NCBI GenBank assembly: GCA_020161505.1 | Contig: JAIUNY010000007.1 | Span: forward strand, 62,001 to 126,000 | DNA length: 64,000 nucleotides | Source: Armatimonadota bacterium | GTDB lineage: Bacteria; Armatimonadota; Fimbriimonadia; Fimbriimonadales; Fimbriimonadaceae | Direction of reading: 5' to 3' | Part shown: piece after piece, positions 49,405-50,097 of the stretch | Layout: the number at the start of each line of letters is the position of its first letter | Numbering within the stretch: the stretch's first letter is position 1 | Made by a program: the position numbers and the translations under genes | The notes under the pieces: generated by a model | What the model was told of the DNA's origin: nothing | Databases searched by the model: none | Seen by the model: only the letters and a program-made list of their open reading frames with translations

Positions 49405-49440
49405 GAAGGAGCAAGTGCAAACTTGTGGAGATAACACCTC

Positions 49441-50037
49441 ATGAAAGCTCACAGCCTCTTAGCCATCTGCGCGATGGCAGCTCTGTGGGCCGTGACGGCC
49501 TGTTCTCCGAGCGTGGCTCAGTCGTCTGATTCGACGACCCCCGGCTCGGAGACGGTCTCTGTCCTCAAGGTGGGCGATCGCGTCGGCGCGTTCGACCCCT
49601 ACCATGTGGCAGGGCCCGACAAAGGCAGCGTCACGTGCCCCACGTGAAAATACGGCAATCGACCTGCGGTGCAGGTCTGGATCAACGACGAGAAAACTGA
49701 AAATCTCGCCAAAATTGCCACCCTCCTCGAAGAACGGCTCGCGAAATCGACGAAGGACTTGAAAGCCTTCTTCATCGTGGTCAAAAAGTCGAAGGAAGAT
49801 GAGCAGAAAGCCGTTTCCCTCGCCGATGCCATCAAAGCGAACAAGCTTGCCGTGGCCCATGTCGGCCAGGATGAATCAGGGGTCAGTGCCTACAAAGCCA
49901 CCTCGCCCGGCCTGAAAAACGTGGTCTACGTGTATGTCAAGCGGCGCGTTGTCGCCAGTTGGGCCAATTTCGACCCAACCGACGAGAACCTAAAGGCACT
50001 CAGCGCGGCCATCGACAAGGCTGAAGCTGGCGGATAA
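49441..50037 (+). CDS. Probable selenoprotein: thioredoxin-fold lipoprotein with CPTU motif
   Basis: 198 codons if the in-frame TGA at 49645-49647 (codon 69) is read as selenocysteine. Signal peptide with lipobox (VTAC, Cys21). The 'GAFDPYHVAGPDKGSVTCPTU' segment then continues 'KYGNRPAVQVWIN' and a thioredoxin-like body ('LKAFFIVVKKSKEDEQ', 'AHVGQDESGVSAYKATSPGLKNVVYVYVKRRV'). Sec takes the second position of a C-x2-C redox pair, the usual place in selenoproteins. A perfect hairpin starts 13 bases after the TGA. Both halves are in one frame and the protein makes sense only when joined. Likely role: periplasmic thiol or peroxide redox. Needs selABCD elsewhere. Confidence 0.82.
49658..49682 (+). 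promoter_or_regulatory. bSECIS-like hairpin for selenocysteine insertion
   Basis: Stem GACCTGC-GGT-GCAGGTC (49661-49677), with an outer ATC/GAT extension separated by a two-base TG bulge. The GGT apical loop lies 20 bases after the TGA. Size, distance and G/U in the loop agree with the general bacterial SECIS model bound by SelB. Confidence 0.7.
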
Positions 50038-50061
50038 CATCCGGTCACATTAGCAAAAACA

Positions 50062-50097
50062 AAGCCCGGGATCTCGTCGGAGACCCCGGGCTTCTTC
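50062..50097. terminator. Terminator between convergent genes
   Basis: 9-bp stem AAGCCCGGG/CCCGGGCTT with an inner TCTC/GAGA pair, then CTTCGT on the plus strand and GTTTTT on the minus strand; works both ways. Confidence 0.85.

Follow-up and report, generated by a model that had tools for sequence, protein, structure and literature searches.

The TGA codon at positions 49645-49647 of the window, the 64,000-nucleotide stretch of an Armatimonadota bacterium contig analysed in this work, almost certainly encodes selenocysteine (Sec). Taken as a whole, the explanation that best accommodates the data, and that we hold to be highly probable, is that the gene encodes a Sec-containing lipoprotein, in which Sec is inserted at residue 69 in a SelB-dependent manner and which works as a thiol/selenol oxidoreductase. 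The sequence data argue for the Sec machinery, a UGA at a conserved Cys, a SECIS-like RNA and a recurrent exchange of Sec and Cys, and the fold class is predicted; lipidation, the direction of the redox reaction, its partners and its substrate are what we infer beyond that, the substrate and the reaction direction being proposed from the fold and the motif alone.

The gene occupies positions 49441-50037 of the forward strand and encodes a protein of 198 residues. As the original prediction had it, the frame contains one in-frame TGA (codon 69) within a CPTU motif and stays open for 129 codons after it, both of which translation bore out. The ATG at 49441 is the sole possible start, because a stop codon lies three codons upstream, and inspection of the sequence revealed a Shine-Dalgarno-like GGAG at 49427-49430, with the ATG 10 nt downstream. 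The putative signal peptide (49441-49503) ends in V-T-A-C at residues 18-21, a plausible lipobox in which C21 is the likely lipidated Cys; it was recognised by eye, as were the ordinary secretion signals of most Cys relatives. Lipidation is suggested by this sequence motif, and the protein is probably lipid-anchored and extracytoplasmic. The redox motif C66-P-T-U69 (49636-49647), assigned from translation, homologue alignment and other Sec forms, lies within the conserved family domain, which spans residues 39-198 (49555-50034) by comparison with homologues. The gene stands alone, with an aldehyde dehydrogenase gene divergent from it and a desaturase-like gene convergent to it; a terminator-like hairpin with its T tail on the minus strand is found between the two convergent genes (50061-50094).

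The genome, of 3.14 Mb and 99.94% complete, encodes the whole set of selA, selB, selC and selD that the original prediction proposed to look for: a tRNA-Sec (selC) with the anticodon tca, SelA (424 bits, cut-off 268), SelB (336 bits, cut-off 242) and SelD (349 bits, cut-off 125). The SelA and SelB genes are free of internal TGA, and that of SelD has one in frame. This SelD (locus L054, 1823-2740; G000:C6:62822-63739) is a selenoprotein too, with its TGA in the sequence CAGUASK and hairpins downstream, and matches the UxxK pattern tabulated for Sec-SelD (PMC13188914).

Homologues were present in 34 of 61 related genomes, and all 30 that were first aligned have Cys exactly in the TGA column, the replacement that had been proposed as a check. 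Among these 30 is a paralogue from the same genome, a secreted Cys form at C9:15391-15858. A pattern scan of genome contigs with the single protein gave no match, whereas an alignment-based scan did. A profile search across the phylum recovered homologues with one internal TGA, and in all 21 that were read out (L141-L150 and L165-L175) the TGA is located at the second Cys of the motif, which reads CPVU in L141-L145 and CYVU, CYIU, CYRU or CYLU in the remaining loci. Including the window gene, Sec forms occur in at least 22 genomes from ten families of Armatimonadota. SelB scored above the curated cut-off in all but one of these 22 genomes, an 80%-complete one, and SelA did so in eight of the ten first tested, the exceptions being a 63%-complete genome and G112. 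The claim of a selenoprotein is therefore upheld by the four sel genes, by the Cys at the TGA column and by the Sec forms of 21 other genomes.

In a tree of 58 rows the Sec label has to change seven times, and well-supported branches force at least four of these changes; the window gene is placed among the Cys forms of its own family. Therefore, Sec and Cys have been exchanged repeatedly. The two forms coexist in several genomes, namely G000 (the genome of the window), G051 and G210. Some other loci deserve mention. One genome with a Sec form also encodes a paralogue (L176, G115:C397:15591-16037) in which Ser occupies the two redox positions (SYVS) and which is therefore possibly non-catalytic. 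Another locus (L151, G144:C68), of the Cys type, is interrupted by a TAA and represents a pseudogene or an assembly error. The CYLU proteins of one genus (group f19; L166-L168 and L170-L175) form a distant Sec branch without the usual CxxC, although AhpC-TSA/Redoxin and ResA models still match them; this branch was found in all members of the genus whose sequences were read out.

The RNA downstream of the TGA was compared with the published bacterial SECIS model. Beginning thirteen bases after the TGA there is a hairpin, GACCTGC-GGT-GCAGGTC (49661-49677, forward strand), with stems at 49661-49667 and 49671-49677 and the loop at 49668-49670; with 7 perfect pairs, a GGU loop, a TGA-to-loop distance of 20 nt and -10.1 kcal/mol it agrees with the model, and the predicted perfect stem with its GGT loop was verified in coordinates, pairing and folding energy. 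Under bSECIS rules this energy is reached by 1.9% of random window positions and by none of 97 Cys homologues, and -7.5 kcal/mol by 6.0% and by 2 of 97, respectively. Given these chance rates, the hairpin by itself is suggestive and not proof, and it is the homologues that decide the matter. An identical 17-nt hairpin at equal distance from the TGA is present in L141, a Sec form from another family, and absent from every other fetched locus. Many Cys homologues encode the peptide PAVQV, as the window gene does, but by other codons; moreover, where the window gene and L141 share a residue they use the same codon in 6 of 7 cases inside the hairpin against 25 of 63 outside it.

Across the family, the 40 nt that follow the first eight bases past the TGA fold more stably than shuffled sequences in Sec forms (median z of -2.6) and not in Cys homologues (0.0). 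This difference has a p of about 0.001 when the largest genus is counted once, a figure that serves only as a guide because the rows are related. Most rows of that genus form a hairpin of 13 pairs capped by a 3-nt loop, in which G is usually the first base, and in several Sec forms the hairpin departs from the strict contiguous-stem model. Covariation in the best-sampled genus yielded one pair with a compensatory change, which did not exceed shuffles and is too weak as proof. A scan of the locus with Rfam gave no match above the gathering score; bacterial SECIS elements are perhaps outside its coverage.

It could be argued that a nonsense mutation or a sequencing error gave rise to the TGA in a Cys gene, the locus being a pseudogene or an artefact. 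The exact window gene is known from one assembly only, a single-base change converts TGC or TGT to TGA, and the genome also has a Cys paralogue that looks functional. However, the TGA falls on the codon of the redox Cys, the 129 codons downstream are intact and conserved, and SelB is above its cut-off in nearly all Sec-form genomes. The same codon is TGA in 21 other genomes, which makes a sequencing error very unlikely, and the hairpin has an exact copy in one other Sec gene, L141, and in no Cys homologue, which leaves practically no room for a pseudogene or a sequencing error; overall, we consider this explanation highly improbable. Reading of the TGA as a standard amino acid (Trp or Cys), by a change of code or readthrough, is hardly credible. 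Although such codes would leave the frame open, none of the 15 AhpC-TSA genes of the genome has an internal TGA, nor have its SelA and SelB genes, and the Sec-form genes L143, L147 and L149 themselves terminate with TGA. Moreover, the genome encodes tRNA-Sec and SelB, and it is always the redox Cys that is replaced.

A different possibility accepts Sec and assigns another role to it, with C66 and U69 binding a metal in a chaperone or sensor, somewhat as in Sco proteins, in place of dithiol/selenol redox chemistry. Thioredoxin-fold proteins can bind metals, and Sco proteins are also thioredoxin-like in fold. The motif lies away from the usual catalytic site, and in the CPxC/U branch an invariant His55 accompanies the CxxC/U. 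Nevertheless, this His is replaced by Asp in the CYxU branch, so no third ligand is conserved throughout the family, and a redox-type CxxU that is recurrently exchanged with Cys fits redox catalysis better. Metal binding is thus unlikely, and a redox role is probable. The conserved CxxC/U, the predicted thioredoxin fold, the export signal and the probable lipid anchor point to thiol/selenol redox chemistry outside the cytoplasm.

In the redox mechanism that we propose, SelB and Sec-tRNA-Sec would recognise the GGU-loop hairpin just 3' of the UGA and place Sec at residue 69; if selenium or SelB were missing, translation would end at 68 residues. The pre-protein would be exported, probably lipidated at Cys21, and held at the membrane outside the cytoplasm, where its TlpA/ResA-like domain may catalyse thiol/selenol redox reactions. 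Sec69, as the selenolate, would attack a disulfide or a peroxide-like substrate and Cys66 would resolve the intermediate; the resulting selenenylsulfide between Cys66 and Sec69 could be re-reduced by a reductant of the membrane or the periplasm. The secreted Cys version in the genome might be a backup, or serve another substrate.

The thioredoxin-type assignment of the original prediction holds for the fold and must be amended for the position of the motif. The AlphaFold model has a confident domain from residue 40 onward (mean pLDDT of 86.9), and its best structural matches are oxidoreductases of the DsbE/TlpA/ResA type and peroxiredoxins of the PrxQ/Bcp type, with Z of 14-17 (3gl3, 16.7; ResA 2h1b, 15.6; PrxQ/Bcp, 14-15). 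Searching PDB sequences with a profile produced no genuine match, and hhalign against one TlpA protein aligned the C-terminal part alone. The model runs from a short helix (67-71), which bears P-T-U, to a strand (76-81), a helix (86-102) and a second strand (108-115). ResA-like proteins have their CxxC after the counterpart of strand 76-81. The CxxU of the window protein (residues 66-69) precedes this strand, upstream of the usual active-site position; at that position (about residues 82-85) the protein reads N-D-E-K and has no thiol, so the CxxC after the first core strand that is expected of TlpA/ResA proteins is absent. According to the model, the redox pair would sit before, and not after, the core strand. 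The CYLU members of one genus are informative in this respect. Their matches to the PF00578 and ResA models extend across almost the entire domain, and they read LCYLU-RNPGKPVVLSFGNIGNPFW, whereas ordinary members of these families have CxxC after an FW-type strand; the placement of their motif supports the point in sequence. We slightly favour the view that a thioredoxin-fold protein gave up its usual active site and draws its redox function from a CxxC/CxxU pair before the core strand.

No Pfam or NCBIfam model matched the window branch at a meaningful score, and none passed its curated cut-off, although the distant CYLU proteins of one genus score above that of PF00578. A 2026 catalogue lists 119 families of prokaryotic selenoproteins (Table 1, PMC13188914), and, judged by the tabulated motifs and by the Pfam and NCBIfam models, none of its entries corresponds in motif and family. 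A literature search on selenoproteins or selenocysteine in Armatimonadetes, Armatimonadota and Fimbriimonas, with subscription papers and preprints outside its scope, found no report. On balance, we are inclined to see here a recurrent selenoprotein family of Armatimonadota that lies outside the catalogue checked, whose active site has moved before the core strand, and in which Sec and Cys have been swapped several times, with both copies kept in some genomes. This would add a selenoprotein family to a phylum without any in the literature searched. With standard gene callers, every Sec copy would come out as two pieces, a short lipopeptide and an orphan fragment. Sec and Cys versions that occur naturally, within one genome or between sister genomes, and whose motif lies off the usual thioredoxin site would offer a direct route to asking what Sec adds and how active sites can shift within one fold.

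Among the closest relatives, the Cys forms of Fimbriimonadaceae and Bacteroidota share the domain with the window protein and have CPPC or CPVC at the equivalent place. In many Cys forms of its own family (L013, L015-L017, L019, L022-L024 and L053) the first CxxC is followed about 47 residues later by another, where the helix after strand 108-115 starts; the window protein lacks this second motif, as do the Bacteroidota forms. In Bacteroidota, unlike in the window protein, a dioxygenase-like lipoprotein domain precedes the shared domain in a fusion. The shared domain forms the C-terminal part of a protein of roughly 400 residues in L117 (2329-3531) and in about 50 other loci (within L082-L140), and in L117, the one Bacteroidota locus checked, a lipoprotein-type signal is followed by an N-terminal part with a match to PF00775 (dioxygenase). 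In about half of the Bacteroidota loci in this range a LytTR-like regulator is encoded upstream. A dioxygenase partner, suggested by the fusion, is not supported for the window protein, as PF00775 is absent from its genome.

With the TlpA/ResA/DsbE and AhpC-TSA/Redoxin (PF00578, PF08534) families the window protein has in common the predicted fold, the export signal and a CxxC-type motif; however, their CxxC comes after the core strand and its CxxU just before. SelD of the same genome resembles it in having an in-frame TGA, but is an unrelated enzyme and part of the Sec machinery. The thioredoxin-like and redoxin selenoproteins already catalogued are TlpA with UGC, Redoxin with UxxC, Prx-SUH with CxxU and Trx7/PDZ with CxxU (Table 1, PMC13188914). 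Like the window protein, these four are thioredoxin-type and carry a single Sec in the redox motif, but they differ from it in motif, position and family models, and their NCBIfam models miss the window branch.
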